From a virus, in the IMG/VR virus record IMGVR_UViG_3300048922_000121, positions 1-39,816 of that record: 39,816 bases of DNA; one strand, written 5' to 3'. Numbering within the stretch: the stretch's first letter is position 1; each line of letters starts with the position of its first letter. The position numbers were made by a program, and so were the translations under genes. Positions 4,598 to 39,765 of this stretch are shown piece by piece. Below the pieces are notes generated by a model. That model was not told where the DNA came from, searched no databases, and saw only the letters and a list, made by a program, of their open reading frames with translations.

Positions 4598-5209
4598 TCA
4601 ATGCCGGATATGGGCGCCGCCGACGACGACGCCGACGATCACGACATTTTCATTGTCGACGATCTCGGGTGTGCCCGGCTCGTCATTGGCTGCCGCCGTC
4701 AAGAGATACGGCGTGCGCCAAACACGGAACAACGTCTCCGCCGTGCCGCGCCGAAAATCATACTTTTGAGCAAGGACGGCGTCGCCATTCCTCGGTGTCT
4801 CATCTCTATCCACCAAAACCACCATGCCGGCCGGATATCCCACGGCAGCCAGCGACCCCGTTTTGAGCCGCCAGAGATCAACCGAGTTGGATCTGCCAAT
4901 TGCCTCGGAAAGGGAAAGCTCAAGAGGATTGACGCTGGCCTTGTCGATCACATAGGGGATCGCTTCCCCTTCACTGAAAGCCTGGATCCTCGGCGTCGTT
5001 CTTGCCTCATAGGCCGGAACCTTCGTCGCATCCTCGATCTTCTTGACTGTACGCGACGTTAGGGTGTGACCACCGGTGTCGTTGTTCTTGAAACGCGTCA
5101 AGGTTGAAGGCGTCAAACCTGCAACGCGAGCGATCTCCGTGAACGTGATGTTCCCGGATCGGCTGATGTGGTCCAGCCATGCCAACTGCTGATCGCGCAA
5201 TGATGTCAT
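4598..5209 (-). CDS. CI-like repressor with S24/LexA-like C-terminal domain
   Basis: A 203-residue lysogeny repressor. Residues 20-45 (ITFTEIARVAGLTPSTLTRF) form a helix-turn-helix. Residues about 107-203 resemble the S24 fold, with GYPAGMVVLVDRDETPRNGD matching the typical region before the strand pair. A Ser is present at TGSLAAV, but the expected catalytic Lys position reads FRVWRTPYL, so self-cleavage is uncertain. Starts at 5209 or 5239 are possible and neither has a ribosome site. TTGGTG and TATTGA 17 bases apart would place transcription start near 5239, suggesting a leaderless message. It is transcribed away from the Cro-like gene. Confidence 0.85.
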   Translation of the reverse strand: MTSLRDQQLAWLDHISRSGNITFTEIARVAGLTPSTLTRFKNNDTGGHTLTSRTVKKIEDATKVPAYEARTTPRIQAFSEGEAIPYVIDKASVNPLELSLSEAIGRSNSVDLWRLKTGSLAAVGYPAGMVVLVDRDETPRNGDAVLAQKYDFRRGTAETLFRVWRTPYLLTAAANDEPGTPEIVDNENVVIVGVVVGGAHIRH

Positions 5210-5225
5210 GCGCGGGAATATCGCA

Positions 5226-5328
5226 GTTTGCAAACCCATGTTCAAAACTCAATACAGCTATTGACTTTGCACACCAAATCACACGGAGATGTGCAAAATC
5301 AAGAGTGATTTGCAAATCGGATACCGCA
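5226..5328. promoter_or_regulatory. Divergent repressor/Cro operator-promoter region
   Basis: It contains a perfect palindrome GTTTGCAAAC (5226-5235), TTTGCAC (5266-5272), GTGCAAAATC (5291-5300) and GTGATTTGCAAA (5305-5316), all sharing the TTTGCA core seen again at 4284-4338. TTGACT at 5261 could be a rightward -35, although no good -10 is seen at normal spacing. The leftward TTGGTG/TATTGA pair would drive the repressor. The arrangement matches a temperate-phage switch in which repressor and Cro-like protein compete for these sites. Confidence 0.65.
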
Positions 5329-5559
5329 ATGCACACGTTTGACGAGATAGATGCACGACGCCAGCGGCTGGGCCTGACCCAAAAGGAACTTTGCGTTCGC
5401 GCGGATGTCCATGAGGGCACCTATAGCCGCTATTGCGGCCGCGATGCGCAAAGCGAGCCGACACCCCGGATCCTGCGGAAGTTGGACACTGCCCTTGCGC
5501 AGATTGCTAGCGAGCGTGGCGTCGTGCTCGTCGAGGAAACCAGAGGAGCAAGACAATGA
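5329..5559 (+). CDS. Cro-like small helix-turn-helix protein
   Basis: A 76-residue protein starting MHTFDEIDARRQRLGLTQKE. Residues 15-45 (LTQKELCVRADVHEGTYSRY) are a Cro/CI-type helix-turn-helix. There is no dimerisation or protease domain, so it fits the Cro role. An upstream in-frame extension would run through the operator palindromes and is rejected. No clear ribosome site precedes the ATG, so the mRNA may be leaderless. It is the first gene of the rightward operon, overlapping the next gene by four bases. Confidence 0.75.
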   Translation: MHTFDEIDARRQRLGLTQKELCVRADVHEGTYSRYCGRDAQSEPTPRILRKLDTALAQIASERGVVLVEETRGARQ

Positions 5560-5867: not shown

Positions 5868-6148
5868 GCGCGGCGCTGCAGATCTGCACCGCCTATAAGG
5901 CGCCAGTCGAGCCGAGCCCGGCCGAAAACAGCCGCTTCCACGATATGTTTCTGTCGAGCCTCAACGGCGAGGCGGCCTCACGCGGCTGGGCCGGCTCGGC
6001 CGTCTGCCAGTATGTGCGCATCGACGGCTATCTCTCGATCTCTATCGAGCCCGGCAAGGGCTGGGCCAGCATGGAAGACCTGCGCGACTTCCGCGAGCGG
6101 CAGCGCCAGGCGCAGCGTGAGGAACCTGAACAGGGGAGATTGGTGTGA
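5864..6148 (+). CDS. Small early protein, unknown function
   Basis: A 94-residue protein starting MSAALQICTAYKAPVEPSPA. The central part (WAGSAVCQYVRIDGYLSISIE) looks beta-rich and the C-terminal 25 residues are highly charged (DLRDFRERQRQAQREEPEQ). Four-base overlap with the previous gene; its stop overlaps the start of the ParB-like gene. Function not recognised. Confidence 0.65.
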   Translation: MSAALQICTAYKAPVEPSPAENSRFHDMFLSSLNGEAASRGWAGSAVCQYVRIDGYLSISIEPGKGWASMEDLRDFRERQRQAQREEPEQGRLV

Positions 6149-6957
6149 TGGATGCTGCAATCAATTTGGACCTTGGCATGCCGCCGCAGTTGCGATGGAC
6201 CGAGTTGTCGGTGATCCGCGTCGACGAGAGCTACCAGCGGCCGCTGAAGAAAAAGCGCGTGGCGCAAATCTTACGCGATTTCCGTTGGGCTCAGTTCGGC
6301 GCGCTGCAGCTCGTAGACCAGGGCGATGGCACCTTTACCGTTTATGACGGGCAGCATCGGTTCGCGGCGGCCAAACAGCATCCGCACATTCAGATGGTTC
6401 CTTGCGTCATTGTAGTTCTGGATCAGGCCTATGAGGAGGCGCAGAGCTTCCTCGGCGTCAACATCAACCGTAGCGCCATCTCAACCGTCGAAAAATACTG
6501 GGCGGGCATCGAGGCCGGCGACGAAATGATGATGCGGATTTGCGCCGTGCTTGAGGACGCCGACTGCGAAGTCGTGCCGCCTGGTACAAAATCGCCGGCG
6601 CCGAACCGCACAAGCTCCATTTCCGCCATTCAGCGCTCGATCGAGCGTTATGGCGAAGAGGCGACAACCGAGGCCTGCCGTACCTTGATCGGCGCTTGGC
6701 CGAAGGACAACGCGGCTCTCGCCGGCGTCATGATCCAGGCTTTGGCCCGGCTGTACCGCAACAATAAAAACATCATCGACCGCGATCGGATGATCGCCCG
6801 CCTACACGGCAAGGATCGGAAGATCCTCGCGGCCGATGCGAACGCCATGCAACGGATCGGCGGCGGCGACGCGGCCGTCTCGCTCGCGAAAGTGCTGGTG
6901 GAAACCTACAACAAGGGCCTGCAGCTCAACCAGATCCAGATTGGGGTGAAGTCATGA
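6148..6957 (+). CDS. ParB/sulfiredoxin-fold protein (DUF6551-like)
   Basis: A 269-residue protein. Residues 18-115 have the ParB N-terminal/sulfiredoxin-like layout: VDESYQRPLKKKRVAQI, then an LxLVDQGDGTFTVYDGQHRF core in which DGQHR (67-71) corresponds to the nucleotide-binding DGxHR box. The remainder is helical and lacks a recognisable ParB centromere-binding helix-turn-helix. It therefore looks like a phage relative rather than a partition ParB. Family members may bind CTP/ATP or act as nucleases, which cannot be judged here. The ATG at 6148 is nine bases after GGGGAG; a GTG at 6145 is the alternative. Confidence 0.75.
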   Translation: MDAAINLDLGMPPQLRWTELSVIRVDESYQRPLKKKRVAQILRDFRWAQFGALQLVDQGDGTFTVYDGQHRFAAAKQHPHIQMVPCVIVVLDQAYEEAQSFLGVNINRSAISTVEKYWAGIEAGDEMMMRICAVLEDADCEVVPPGTKSPAPNRTSSISAIQRSIERYGEEATTEACRTLIGAWPKDNAALAGVMIQALARLYRNNKNIIDRDRMIARLHGKDRKILAADANAMQRIGGGDAAVSLAKVLVETYNKGLQLNQIQIGVKS

Positions 6958-7256: not shown

Positions 7257-7312
7257 ATTTCCGTTTCAACCCAGCCGATTTGTATTGCGTTCGGCCACCT
7301 TACCGGTGGTGC

Positions 7313-7828
7313 ATGCTGAATTTTACCGAGCTTGATCTGATGATGAAGGCTTCAAACATCTCCGATGCTGCGGTGATCCGGATCGCAGGACTGCAGACGA
7401 GCTACCTTGCTCGACTGCGTGCCGGCGTGAAGCCGCTGACGCCGACGATGGCGCGGCGGATCCAGCTGGCGATCGCCAGGCTGCGCCGTGGCGAGAGCAA
7501 TGTCGATCGCGCCCTGCCCTCTGCCTGCTATCGCCTGGCCGTCGCCTATGTCGCCCATGCCCGGGGCAAGACGGCGGATTTTGTGCTTTCGGCCGATCCC
7601 GGCAAGCGCGCAACGGCCGACAAGGTTTGGATGGAAGCGGCGCAGTTGCGCCGTTGGGCCATCTACATCGCAAACCAGTATCTCAACCTGCCGCAAGCCG
7701 AGTTGGCCCGCGCCGCCGGCATGAGCAAAGCGGCCGTGAGCTACGCCATGAACGATGTGGAAGATGAGCGCGGGGATCCGGCGCTCGAAGCGCTGCTGGC
7801 GGCCGTGGAAGGGGCGTTCTCCATATGA
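7313..7828 (+). CDS. Double helix-turn-helix protein, DnaA C-terminal-like domain
   Basis: A 171-residue protein. The N-terminal part (LMMKASNISDAAVIRIAGLQ, then SYLARLRAGVKPLTPTMARR) is a Cro-like helix-turn-helix. The C-terminal part (AAQLRRWAIYIANQYLNLPQ, then AELARAAGMSKAAVSYAM) resembles the DnaA domain-IV helix-turn-helix that reads origin DNA. An intervening segment could link them. The start at 7313 is preferred over one 11 codons earlier, which gives an unlikely N-terminus. Just upstream of the primase-like and helicase genes, it may recognise the phage origin or regulate the early operon. Confidence 0.7.
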   Translation: MLNFTELDLMMKASNISDAAVIRIAGLQTSYLARLRAGVKPLTPTMARRIQLAIARLRRGESNVDRALPSACYRLAVAYVAHARGKTADFVLSADPGKRATADKVWMEAAQLRRWAIYIANQYLNLPQAELARAAGMSKAAVSYAMNDVEDERGDPALEALLAAVEGAFSI

Positions 7829-8940
7829 ACCGCCGCGACGACACTGCCGATATCAAGCAGGGGCTGAAAGATCGCATCGTCGATCTTTGCACCAGGCTGT
7901 TGCCGGACGGGCAGCTGCAGGGGCGGCTTTGGGTGGCGCACAATCCTATCACCTGCGATCACCATAAGAGCGCGGAATTCAAGGTGGCCGTTACCCGGGA
8001 TATTGGCGCCTGGAAGGATTGGCGCACGGGCGAGCATGGCGACGTCATCGGCCTGCTGCAATATTGCCGGCAGTGCGATTTCCGCGAGGCGATGGACTTT
8101 GCCCGCGATTTCCTCGGCATCCGGCAGATGACACGGAAGGATTTCGCGCGCTTCCAGGAGCGATCGGCCGAGGCGCGCGCCAAGGCCGAGCAGGACGGCG
8201 AGAAAAAGCGACTGCAGAACATGGCGATGGCCGAGCGGCTGTTCCACAAAGGTTATCTCGACGGCGCCGGCAGCGCGGCCGAGGCGAATGCGCGGGCTTA
8301 CTTCGCAGCCAGGCGCATTCCGCTCGAGCAGATCCCGAACCGGGATCTTGCCACCATGCGTTATTCCCCTGGTCTCGAGTATTGGCGCCGAGCACAATTC
8401 AGCCGCGCCGGCGGCAAGATGATCAAGATCTCGGAAGGGCCGAGCTTTCCAGCGATCCTTTCCGCCATGCGCACGCCGACCGGCCAGCTTTCCGCCTGCC
8501 ATTGCACCTTCCTTTCGCCTCTCGGCCCCAAAAAGCTGCCCGTAGAGAAGGACGAAAACGCCAAGCTGATGCGCGGCGAAGCCACAGGCGCGATGATCCG
8601 GATCAGCCACGGACCGGAAGGCGTGCCGCCTGAGGTGGCAACGCAGGCCTGGCCGCTGCTTCTCGGCGAAGGGATCGAGACCACGGCCTCGGTGTCGATC
8701 GAGGCGCCCGAAGCCCGCGCATGGGCGGGCGGCAGCCTTTCAAACATGGGCAACGCGCCGGTGTGGCTGCCCTGCATCTCGGCCGTGATCGTGCTGAAGG
8801 ATCATTTCAAATCCAAGACCACGGAAAAGCAATTCGCCGGCGTGCTGGAAAAGCTGGCGGCGGCCGGCAAGCCGATCAGCGTGATCGAGAGCATCGCCGG
8901 CAATGATTTCAACGACCTGCTGCAGGAAGGGGATGAATGA
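7825..8940 (+). CDS. Toprim-domain DNA primase-like protein
   Basis: A 371-residue protein. Residues 35-98 resemble a degenerate CHC2 zinc-binding module (ITCDHHKSAEF, ending HGDVIGLLQYCRQCDFREAM). Residues 276-367 form a Toprim domain, with LLLGEGIETTAS supplying the catalytic Glu282 and GNDFNDLLQ closing the domain. The usual DxD pair is weak (VIVLKDHFKSK), as in many phage relatives of plasmid primases. It should make primers for phage DNA replication with the ATPase encoded at 11761. It overlaps both neighbours by four bases. Confidence 0.85.
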   Translation: MNRRDDTADIKQGLKDRIVDLCTRLLPDGQLQGRLWVAHNPITCDHHKSAEFKVAVTRDIGAWKDWRTGEHGDVIGLLQYCRQCDFREAMDFARDFLGIRQMTRKDFARFQERSAEARAKAEQDGEKKRLQNMAMAERLFHKGYLDGAGSAAEANARAYFAARRIPLEQIPNRDLATMRYSPGLEYWRRAQFSRAGGKMIKISEGPSFPAILSAMRTPTGQLSACHCTFLSPLGPKKLPVEKDENAKLMRGEATGAMIRISHGPEGVPPEVATQAWPLLLGEGIETTASVSIEAPEARAWAGGSLSNMGNAPVWLPCISAVIVLKDHFKSKTTEKQFAGVLEKLAAAGKPISVIESIAGNDFNDLLQEGDE

Positions 8941-11704: not shown

Positions 11705-11733
11705 CCGCCGCGCCGTAGGGGATGGCGCGGCGG
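11705..11733 (+). promoter_or_regulatory. Strong GC hairpin before the helicase gene
   Basis: A perfect 10-bp stem (CCGCCGCGCC / GGCGCGGCGG) with a nine-base loop GTAGGGGAT. No T run follows, so it is not a standard terminator. It may stabilise or process the mRNA, or modulate helicase translation. Confidence 0.5.
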
Positions 11734-11760
11734 CCACATTCCAGCATGACAGGGCGCATC

Positions 11761-13671
11761 GTGGCGAAAACACCAAAAATTCAGGCAGGCAAAAAAGCGG
11801 CACGCGCCATCTTCGAAGACGCGCTGGCGTCTATCGACGAACAGACCCAGCGACGGGATCCGGATCCGAACCTGCTGCGCAACGGCATCAAGGCCGGCAC
11901 ATGGGACGGATTTCCGCATGAGAATATGCCGCCGGACTGCCCGATCACCGTGCTCGGCATGAAGGGCACCACCGTTTACGTGATCTCCGCCACCGGAAAC
12001 CTGCTCGAGGTGGAGCGCTGGGATCATCCGACGCTGGTCAAGCTGTTCGCCCCCTACACCAACTATCTGAAATGGGCCTGGCCGGCATGGACAAAGGCCA
12101 AGGAAGATGCGCAGACCGGCGAGGTGATCCCGCCGAAGGTCGATCGCGTGGCGCGCGACAAGGCGGTGGAAGCAATCATTACCGAGGCCGGCCGCAAGGG
12201 CATATTCGACCCGAAAGACAATGTGCGCGGCCGTGGCGGCTGGAAGGCGCAGGACAAGTTTCTCTGGCACAGCGGCACCAGGCTGTGGAGTGTCGACGTC
12301 GAGACCGACAAGGACAACCGCGCCAAGTCCTGGAATCTGCAGACCATGAAGCCGAACGACTACGACGGTTTCTTCTACAAGCGCGATAGCGACACGCTAG
12401 AGCCCTGGCGCACCCGCGTGACGATCGAGGAGAGCCCGGCGCATGAGCTGATGCGCTCGCTGCGCACCTGGAACTGGGAACGGCCCTATCTGGATCCGCT
12501 GCTGTTGCTCGGCTGGATCGGCTCGGCCTTCCTCGGCGCCGCGCTCGAGGTGCGGCCGATCGTCTTCACCACGGGCGGACCTGGTCGCGGCAAGACAACG
12601 CTTCACAATTTCATCAAGGCGATTTTCGGACCGGCACTGTATTCGACCGCGAACACGACGGCCGCCGGCATCTATCAGAACATCGGCCAGGACAGCCGGC
12701 CGGTTGCCGTCGACGAGCTCGAGCGCAAAGGCAACAGCTACAAGGAACAGGCGATCATCGAGCTTGCCCGCCAGTCCTATTCCGGCGCGAAACTCTATCG
12801 CGGCGGATCCAACCATGAAGGTGTCGAATTCGAGCTGCGATCGAGCTTCCTGTTTTCCGCCATCATCCACCCGCCGCTCGAGCACCAGGACAGGACGCGA
12901 ATGGCGATCCTCAACCTGGACAAGCTCGATAAGGGCCACGGCCGACAACCGATCATCAAGGAAGAATATGGCCGCATGATCCTGCGGCAGCTGATGGACG
13001 GCTACCACGACTTCTATTGGCATATCCTGCCGAAGTGGAACAAATGGCTGTCAAACCCACGCCTGCCCTTCGACGCGCGCGCGATCGACACCTATGGCAC
13101 GCTGCTCGCCTGCTGCGAGCTGCTGATCGGCGAGGCCGGCATGATCGAATGCGGCCTACGCGCCGACGATCTCCTCGAGGACGCGATCGACGTCGACCAC
13201 CTGGTCGACACAATGCTTTCGGCAACCGTTGAAGAGCTAGCCGACCAGAAGGAAAAGTGGCAGCAGGTGCTCGAGCGCATCATGGAAACGACGATCGACC
13301 AGTGGAAGGGCGGCGAGAAATTCACCGTCGGCCACGTGCTGACGATGCTTGAGGAACAGATCATCAAGCTCGAAGAAGCCCGAACCATGCTTGCGACGGT
13401 CGGCCTCGGCCTGCGCGATCGGCAGAGCCCTCGCCCTGGTTACTGCCTGGCGGTGCCATTCTCCTCGAGCAAGGTCGACAAGATCTTTGACGGGACGGAC
13501 TATCATCGCGGCGGCTGGACGGTGGCGCTGAAGCAGGCACCGGACAATATCGTGCTCCGGAGGATCGAGCGGAAGCACCTGCAGGTCAAGATCAACCGCA
13601 TCAATCAGATGTGCTCGATCATCGATCTCGAGGCCTATGACGCGATCTCGGCCGAGCTAGAGGCGGCGTAG
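11761..13671 (+). CDS. Replicative helicase-like P-loop ATPase
   Basis: About 636 residues. A Walker A motif (GGPGRGKTTL, Lys near residue 278) follows a hydrophobic strand VRPIVFTTG. After it come VAVDELERKG, a Walker B-like acidic segment, and SSFLFSAIIHPPLEHQDRTR, resembling the sensor/arginine-finger region of DUF927/SF3-type phage helicases. The N-terminal 230 residues lack known motifs, and the C-terminal part carries helices and a winged-helix-like end. It would unwind DNA with the Toprim primase. GTG 11761 (AGGG six bases upstream) or ATG 11746 may be the start; ATG 11722 falls in a hairpin. Confidence 0.8.
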   Translation: MAKTPKIQAGKKAARAIFEDALASIDEQTQRRDPDPNLLRNGIKAGTWDGFPHENMPPDCPITVLGMKGTTVYVISATGNLLEVERWDHPTLVKLFAPYTNYLKWAWPAWTKAKEDAQTGEVIPPKVDRVARDKAVEAIITEAGRKGIFDPKDNVRGRGGWKAQDKFLWHSGTRLWSVDVETDKDNRAKSWNLQTMKPNDYDGFFYKRDSDTLEPWRTRVTIEESPAHELMRSLRTWNWERPYLDPLLLLGWIGSAFLGAALEVRPIVFTTGGPGRGKTTLHNFIKAIFGPALYSTANTTAAGIYQNIGQDSRPVAVDELERKGNSYKEQAIIELARQSYSGAKLYRGGSNHEGVEFELRSSFLFSAIIHPPLEHQDRTRMAILNLDKLDKGHGRQPIIKEEYGRMILRQLMDGYHDFYWHILPKWNKWLSNPRLPFDARAIDTYGTLLACCELLIGEAGMIECGLRADDLLEDAIDVDHLVDTMLSATVEELADQKEKWQQVLERIMETTIDQWKGGEKFTVGHVLTMLEEQIIKLEEARTMLATVGLGLRDRQSPRPGYCLAVPFSSSKVDKIFDGTDYHRGGWTVALKQAPDNIVLRRIERKHLQVKINRINQMCSIIDLEAYDAISAELEAA

Positions 13672-13973: not shown

Positions 13974-14533
13974 CGATCGACACTCATCATTCATCGCAAA
14001 ATCCAAGGTGTGAACCCGCCTTTGCCCTTCCATATCCATGTTCCCCCGCCCCAAAACACCGGCGCATTTAACTCTCTTCCCCCGCCCCGGAGGGAGAGAA
14101 AGCGGAGCCCGCGCGCGTTCAGCGCAACGCTTGCGGAGCCAGTTGAAGGCCCGAAATGCCTATGTGGCCGCTCGCTTCGATAGTGCGATGTCGCTGGCGC
14201 GCGGGCACTTAACGCAGCGGGAACCGTGTGAGCTTTCAGGGTGCGGGACGGATTTGCGGCTCGCCTTCACTGCCCGGTAGACGGGTAGACGATCGGTAGA
14301 CGAGCCGTCTACCGCGTTTCTTCAACGAAAACATAGGGTTATTGCGATGGTAGACGAGTAGACCAAATATAGAGGCTTTTTATGCGCGCGCGGGCGCGTC
14401 ACGTGAGAATAATATTCGTCTACTTGTCTACCAATAGGTATATGTTCCTGATTTTATTAAAGAAACGCGGTAGATAAAACGGTCGACAACGGTAGACGGC
14501 GTCGACCGGAATAAACAAATAGGGAAATAACCG
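13974..14533. other. 560-bp gene-free region between early and late modules
   Basis: No convincing gene. An 80-codon plus ORF at 14038 has an Arg/Pro-rich translation and no ribosome site. The right half is AT-rich and carries the GTAGAC array. Its place between the replication operon and the terminase genes suggests the late promoter, a replication origin or the packaging start. Confidence 0.6.
14277..14497. repeat. Array of nine GTAGAC hexamers
   Basis: Direct copies start at 14277, 14285, 14296, 14350, 14358 and 14492. Inverted copies (GTCTAC) start at 14307, 14418 and 14426. Three pairs are tandem with an 8-bp step (14277/14285, 14350/14358, 14418/14426). GGTAGACGAGCCGTCTACC (14295-14313) is a perfect dyad. 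The second and third pairs form a near-perfect 20-bp inverted repeat about 50 bp apart, around 14348-14433. A protein binding GTAGACNN dimers is implied; which one is unknown. Confidence 0.8.
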
Positions 14534-15169
14534 ATGACCGGCGACGACGGCGACAATTTGGGGCTTCCAGTGGCACACACGCCGGAGCGCGCTGAAAAAA
14601 AAAAAATCGGAGCGACGGCAGCGGCAACCGAGGCCGCAATGGCCGACCTGGCGGCCGAGCTGCAGCCCGAGGCCGAACCCGAACAGCAATCGCTACTGCT
14701 CGATGAGCTGGACGCGCAACAGTCTCTGTTCAAGGGGCCGGTGAAACACGTCGCGTCAACACTGGATGCCGCTTTCAGGGCGCGGGGGAGGCCGAAGGGC
14801 AGCCAGAACAAAGCGAGCAAGGAATTCGCGCAGACACTCATGCGCATGGGCTTCAAGCATCCTGGCCTCAACCTCGCTGCCCTGGCGAATGCGGATCCGG
14901 TGGAGCTAGCCAAGGAACTGTCAGTCGAGGAACGCGACAAGAATGGCGTCATCTGGCGCGTCGGATGCGACCCGGCAAAGGCGATGGACATGATCATCAA
15001 GGCCAATGCCGAGCTGCTGCCCTACTTCGAGAGCAAGCGACCGCAGCCGAAGGACGATGGCGATAGCGATCGGCCGCTCGGCGTGATGTATATCGGCCAG
15101 ATGAATGTCGTCCAGGCCGACGATAAGCGTACGATCGACATCACGCGCGTTGATAGCCCGGATAAGTGA
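14534..15169 (+). CDS. Probable terminase small subunit
   Basis: A 211-residue protein just upstream of the large terminase. It has a charged disordered N-terminus (TPERAEKKKIGATAAATEAA), then AFRARGRPKGSQNKASKEFA, a basic segment like those in small-terminase and DNA-binding phage proteins, then helices. Assignment rests mainly on gene order, since no conserved HTH is clear. A run of 12 A at 14595-14606 encodes EKKK and would tolerate slippage or sequencing error. If a base were lost or gained, the real start could lie downstream at MADLAAELQPE. Confidence 0.55.
   Translation: MTGDDGDNLGLPVAHTPERAEKKKIGATAAATEAAMADLAAELQPEAEPEQQSLLLDELDAQQSLFKGPVKHVASTLDAAFRARGRPKGSQNKASKEFAQTLMRMGFKHPGLNLAALANADPVELAKELSVEERDKNGVIWRVGCDPAKAMDMIIKANAELLPYFESKRPQPKDDGDSDRPLGVMYIGQMNVVQADDKRTIDITRVDSPDK

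Positions 15170-39689: not shown

Positions 39690-39765
<76 letters not shown>

Follow-up and report, generated by a model that had tools for sequence, protein, structure and literature searches.

What purpose is served by a dense array of short repeats lying between the replication genes and the terminase genes of a temperate podophage? The stretch of DNA analysed here (39,816 nucleotides, IMG/VR record IMGVR_UViG_3300048922_000121, hereafter the window) represents a complete prophage, about 39.7 kb long, bounded by a perfect 46-bp direct repeat at 32-77 and 39690-39735 (attL and attR), of which the right copy forms the 3' end of a tRNA-Thr gene. The array is preceded by genes for a TOPRIM primase and a helicase and by a 100-aa ORF, and is followed by a small-terminase-like gene and the TerL and portal genes; in the window the terminase genes are nearer to it than the helicase gene is. 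TerL shares about 29% identity with its distant relatives in podophages such as BcepC6B, and the small-terminase-like protein (14534-15169) has a conserved, AT-hook-like RGRPKGSxNK stretch and no match in Pfam or PHROGs. Cumulative GC skew has a turning point near 15-17 kb, which we left out of the evidence for an origin. The original prediction offered two readings of the array, a replication origin or a late-gene activator site. Our results support the first well, through the two-half iteron geometry, the place 3' of the helicase gene, the covariation with the helicase wing and the half-array plan known from P4 and PICIs, and they lend no support to the second. The array is very likely the replication origin of a temperate podophage.

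The repeats themselves were largely as predicted. Nine exact GTAGAC hexamers span 221 bp (14277-14497, at 14277, 14285, 14296, 14307(-), 14350, 14358, 14418(-), 14426(-) and 14492), three pairs of them are set at 8-bp steps (14277/14285, 14350/14358 and 14418/14426), a perfect dyad (CGGTAGACG-agc-CGTCTACCG) occupies 14294-14314, and inverted repeats join 14308-14333 with 14449-14474 (26 nt, 85%) and 14348-14366 with 14415-14433 (19 nt, 89%). GTAGAC is found 21 times in the 39.8-kb window, with 12 copies scattered outside the array, and this number was matched in none of 100 shuffles (4.8 +/- 2.1 copies). Three one-mismatch sites had been overlooked (14469, 14481 and 14500(-)), and with them the array is complete at 12 sites, forming a 232-bp approximate dyad (14276-14507) with six sites on each side of its centre (Table 1). 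The left half reads +0 +8 +19 -30 +73 +81, and three of the four iterons in block D carry one mismatch. No plasmid matches to the array DNA were found.

Table 1. Parts of the array and associated genes; positions refer to the window, except in the last row, where they refer to the loci named.
Feature	Position	Strand	Remarks
Block A, four iterons	14276..14313	+	GGTAGACG at 14276(+), 14284(+), 14295(+), 14306(-)
Left-half A+T-rich gap, candidate melting site	14314..14348	+	CGCGTTTCTTCAACGAAAACATAGGGTTATTGCGAT; related element in other half
Block B, two iterons, 8-bp step	14349..14364	+	GGTAGACG/AGTAGACC
Dyad centre	14365..14416	.	Alternating purine/pyrimidine (GCGCGC...) tract, about 14381-14400
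Block C, two iterons	14417..14432	-	Mirror image of block B
Right-half A+T-rich gap	14433..14468	-	ATAGGTATATGTTCCTGATTTTATTAAAGAAACGCG
Block D, four iterons	14469..14507	+	GGTAGATA 14469(+), GGTCGACA 14481(+), GGTAGACG 14491(+), GGTCGACG 14500(-)
Initiator helicase, hexameric SF3/D5- or Cch-type, 649 aa, predicted iteron reader	11722..13671	+	AlphaFold2 model and structural matches
Beta-wing of helicase C-terminal domain, residues 616-636 including Lys623, specificity candidate	13567..13629	+	Top-ranked covarying column and windows
TOPRIM primase, replication module shared with helicase	7825..8940	+	PF13362 E 1.6e-11; phrog_510
Two-HTH protein, possible accessory initiator	7280..7828	+	C-terminus weakly DnaA-domain-IV-like
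7-bp repeat clusters in named phages	L109 7516-7800; L110 11960-12430; L113 3076-3480		Serratia MQ-4; Pseudomonas ZRG1; Acinetobacter Acjo_20

To place the array among its relatives we used the helicase as search query, since a search with the small-terminase-like protein gave only two loci. The helicase scans led to 93 fetched loci, comprising 14 loci in bacterial genomes (hosts Rhizobium, Stappia, Roseibium, Aurantimonas and others) and 79 viral contigs. Most loci have a cluster of a single, locus-specific hexamer between the helicase and terminase genes. Geometry was assessed in the 80 non-redundant loci with a scorable array, the window included, and the plan of spacing and orientation, an approximate dyad, is common to all 80. 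The counts that follow come from site calls that tolerate one mismatch and from loci that share ancestry: 12 sites in total were called in 42 of the 80 loci, 11-13 in 64, and exactly 6+6 in 40, so that half of the set departs from exact 6+6. A mirror partner on the opposite strand was present for 70% of the sites, versus 43% in random layouts, and about 30% of the sites are unmirrored although their positions stay fixed. Some loci come close to perfect dyads; L080, for one, is an exact mirror, with +0 -17 -28 +75 +83 +92 in one half and -143 -152 -160 +206 +218 -235 in the other, while some middle sites are flipped in right halves and in other relatives, and some clades use a 3+3 arrangement.

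Inside each half there is a gap, some 36 bp long, that is rich in A+T (57% and 63% on average, against 36.5% for the loci), whereas the centre between the halves is only 40% A+T. The longest alternating purine/pyrimidine run has a mean length of 20 bp at the centre and 6 bp in the gaps (65 loci). The conserved alternating GC tract at the dyad centres, at 14381-14400 in the window and likewise in relatives, may favour Z-DNA or a cruciform.

The array lies at a variable distance from the helicase stop codon, from about 30-40 bp in two loci (L085 and L089) to more than 6 kb in L022, and accessory genes fill the longer gaps. This interval looks like an insertion hotspot (L006 7950-9760, L022 11845-18319, and downstream of the helicase in L007 and L008); the gap in L006 holds a gene that, judged by eye, is seemingly thermonuclease-like. 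Intergenic clusters of a 7-bp repeat, partly with similar spacing, also occur in named phages whose helicase is distantly related (Table 1).

While the geometry is kept, the hexamer is replaced in concert across the whole array. About 20 versions were seen, among them GTAGAC, GTTGAC, GTTACC, GTTGCC, GTTGGC, GGTTAG, GGTTGAA, CCTACA, GTAACA, AGACAC, GGGACAC, TGGAAC, GGAACG, GTGAAC, GTGACC, AATTAG and ACGGAC. In L062 the array (12924-13224) mixes GTTGCC, GTTACC and GTTGGC, and the hexamers of L030 and L031 are also mixed or poorly defined; these three loci were excluded from the statistics. Mixed arrays, at least that of L062, may be intermediates in a change of origin specificity.

Concerted change of a hexamer at a dozen sites requires a reader that changes along with them. 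We searched for this reader by comparing motif distance with protein distance while controlling for relatedness (partial correlation). Among the widely shared proteins the helicase gave the top partial correlation (0.177), with the integrase close behind (0.176). Within the helicase the signal is located in the extreme C-terminus: among the 2861 columns compared across 11 proteins, Lys623 scored highest (partial r 0.42; mean 0.01, sd 0.09), and the top three of 496 windows all fell in the helicase C-terminus. A second test used non-overlapping nearest-neighbour pairs of loci. In these pairs the distance of the wing minus that of the helicase body was 0.13 when the hexamer differed (12 pairs) and -0.04 when it was the same (22 pairs; p 1e-4), and with shifted windows the wing region came first of 404 (p 6e-4). 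TerS, TerL, the repressor and the HTH protein gave no whole-protein signal in the pairs test. Individual substitutions point the same way, insofar that the change from VKIN to VDIN is found only in the three CCTACA phages, and that the wing sequences AKFC and STKWC accompany GGTTAGg and GGTTGAA, respectively. However, the lead should be taken as strong but not conclusive, since the loci are related by descent and other proteins have a few columns that come close (single TerL and repressor columns with r 0.37-0.40, and portal windows with 0.30). The sequences thus give the helicase wing a real but modest lead, and we predict that the helicase C-terminus is probably the iteron reader. Other candidates for this role were rejected, namely TerL and a ParB-like protein (6145-6957), neither of which followed the hexamer, the latter being present in only 16 of the loci.

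The predicted structure of the helicase is consistent with such a role. The AlphaFold2 model of the full protein (pLDDT 87, pTM 0.83) had Foldseek matches to NrS-1 (its helicase part, the top match), SaPI5 and D5-type helicases. On re-alignment the best match was SCCmec Cch (5dgk; Z 16.1 over 429 residues), and SaPI5 (7ola; Z 13.1) and SaPIbov1 Rep (8tch; Z 12.3) were also among the matches listed. These models suggest that the protein is a hexameric AAA+ initiator of the SF3-D5 or Cch/MCM-like type, the hexamer itself being predicted. We draw the kinship from the predicted structure. When the helicase profile was searched against solved structures nothing meaningful was matched, and when it was compared with the profiles of P4 alpha and EcCICFT073 Rep the likeness was confined to a trace in the ATPase core. 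The NrS-1 phage polymerase is known to begin synthesis at TTTGGTTA (PMC8718748). The isolated C-terminal domain was modelled with a pLDDT of 88 and has a beta-hairpin that bears Lys623; its best matches, TcpK and the C-terminus of SaPIbov1 Rep, were weak (best Foldseek E 0.04, Z no higher than 4.0). TcpK is a winged-helix protein that reads 9-nt tandem repeats by its beta-wing and not by a recognition helix (PMC6137059), and this is the same place to which the covariation points in the phage helicase. The origin-binding domain of P4 alpha was absent from the structural match lists of the C-terminal domain, which excludes nothing.

Other functions can be imagined for an array at this position, and each is disfavoured because it failed in the covariation tests, because of where the array lies in distant relatives, or because the sites stay fixed despite flips of orientation. 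Sites of the pac or cos type are often near terS, the array of the window ends about 27 bp upstream of the small-terminase-like gene, and a TerS-like gene is present in 92 of 95 loci, so that a packaging site for the small-terminase-like protein has to be considered. Nevertheless, TerS distance was unrelated to the hexamer once relatedness was controlled (partial r -0.03; pairs test p 0.70), and TerL has been replaced in L035 (54% identity) with the hexamer still GTAGAC, whereas in L028 TerL is 85% identical and the hexamer has changed. The arrays of several distant relatives adjoin the helicase gene and are more than 1 kb from TerL, and a twofold plan would fit bidirectional replication better than one-way packaging; we therefore regard packaging as very unlikely. 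The same position, beside the helicase stop and over 1 kb away from the terminase gene, speaks against the late-gene activator of the original prediction. It is true that the array sits where early genes give way to late ones, and that operators too diversify along with their regulators, and an activator site or immunity operator could in principle be bound by the HTH protein (7280-7828), the S24 repressor (4598-5245) or a small HTH protein (5179-5559). Yet none of these was found to track the hexamer: the repressor is 76% identical in L045, which has CCTACA, and 31% identical in L035, which has GTAGAC, and the distances of the repressor and of the small HTH protein were both uncorrelated with the hexamer (partial r 0.02 and -0.04; pairs test p 0.99 and 0.79). 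As for the 7280 protein, its C-terminal recognition-helix stretch is identical in the GTAGAC window and in L028 with GTTGAC, and varies among phages with GTTACC. Moreover, no sigma-70-like promoter was found inside the array, and regulation of this kind is in our judgement very improbable, slightly more so than packaging.

Two further alternatives concern how the DNA would be used. The array could be an origin at which the two-HTH protein, like lambda O, is the iteron-binding initiator, with the helicase recruited to it. Almost all relatives that are long enough have this protein (76 loci), its gene immediately precedes that of the primase, and there is a weak likeness between its C-terminus and DnaA domain IV (PF08299, E 0.009-0.05, below the cutoff). 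Unlike the helicase wing, however, the protein shows distances that are unrelated to the hexamer (partial r -0.05; pairs test p 0.16), and we consider it unlikely, if less so than either of the preceding functions, as the initiator. Its C-terminus also has a weak resemblance to the NCBI PRK06030 group, and being near-universal the protein may act as a helper, regulator or co-initiator. Finally, the dyad could be a folded RNA, or a single-stranded DNA or cruciform element, as the + strand folds as RNA far better than shuffles (z -8.0) and the centre is an alternating GC tract. The same fold would be expected from any dyad of binding sites, though, and the unmirrored sites, about 30% of the total, break the pairing, which a set of duplex sites would tolerate, while their positions stay fixed. 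An Rfam scan of the window returned the tRNA only, with no family matching the array, and a folded element seems very improbable.

Taken together, the array is with good probability an iteron origin of the P4/PICI type, read by the C-terminal wing of the helicase, with its halves turned inside-out relative to those of PICIs and probably serving to load a double hexamer. Each half offers its outer four iterons, a gap of about 36 bp rich in A+T, and its inner pair, and the halves face each other across the alternating GC tract. From the array, its conserved geometry, the concerted change of the hexamer, the covariation and the modelled fold, all of them shown by computation, we infer the following course of events. 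Each iteron would dock one helicase subunit through a winged-helix-like domain at the C-terminus, whose beta-wing would read the bases. As six iterons per half would place six subunits, the dyad would load two opposed hexamers; that the 6+6 sites reflect such a double hexamer appears to us somewhat more probable than the contrary. Melting would begin in the A+T-rich gaps, after which the two rings would move apart and bidirectional replication would be primed by the phage TOPRIM primase.

If so, a lineage of complete temperate podophages could carry a built-in template for double-hexamer loading, made of two six-iteron sets in dyad with one iteron for each subunit, the sequence of which diversifies like a lock together with a few residues of the beta-wing. 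Related prophages would then keep separate origin specificities on a fixed geometry, and the six-site half would be shared with P4 and PICIs and assembled inside-out. We put this wider interpretation forward tentatively, at a little less than an even chance. The recurrence of six sites in each half would link the number of iterons to the stoichiometry of the ring, and would open a direct route to the question of how self-loading helicases come together as opposed hexamers. In addition, the roughly 20 iteron sequences, with their matching helicase wings, provide natural data for a protein-DNA recognition code.

A closely similar layout is seen in whole temperate phages, in alphaproteobacterial genomes and many metagenomes. 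A close parallel to one half is the P4 ori, which in the P4 record has six iterons at +0 +10 +21 -43 +86 +96. It shares with the left half of the window the order +++-..++ and an A+T-rich gap between the fourth and fifth iterons, and the P4 alpha protein binds ori by its C-terminus. Because of this likeness the phage origin can be described as two P4-like six-site units. In P4, however, ori and crr are about 4.5 kb apart, whereas the phage origin joins two six-site halves in one dyad, and in the window, unlike P4, primase and helicase are separate genes.

Among satellites, the PICI and SaPI origins have two iteron sets 3' of the rep gene (PMC6092414, PMC7581432); in E. coli PICIs these surround an A+T-rich region, and EcCICFT073 replicates from its rep-ori (PMC6092414). 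We located the EcCICFT073 region by annotation (primase, then intergenic region). Its iterons, GGTAGAC, are the same as those of the window; the left half, read outward, has sites at 0 9 20 -41 88 97, and the right half has five clear sites. The arrangement is nevertheless reversed, since the groups of four are innermost in EcCICFT073 and outermost in the podophages, where the pairs are innermost. The A+T-rich gaps lie inside the halves, as in the P4 ori and unlike the PICI description, the centre is an alternating GC tract, and the carrier of the array is here a whole temperate podophage and not a satellite. Both SaPI Rep and Cch2 use the C-terminal domain to bind iterons that lie 3' of their own genes, and for Cch2 the isolated domain suffices for binding (PMC7581432). 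SaPI5 and SaPIbov1 Rep are structurally like the phage helicase model, and SCCmec Cch (5dgk) is its closest structural relative, whereas the Cch2 site consists of three AAGTG iterons and no 12-site dyad has been reported for Cch2.

The eukaryotic viruses offer a last comparison. SV40 T antigen and papillomavirus E1 are SF3-type helicases that load as opposed hexamers at a dyad of short sites, and the phage array, with its dyad and its predicted SF3/D5- or Cch-type helicase, resembles their origins. The domain that recognizes the origin is N-terminal in T antigen and E1 (PMC7581432), whereas in the phage helicase it is the C-terminal domain that is implicated.
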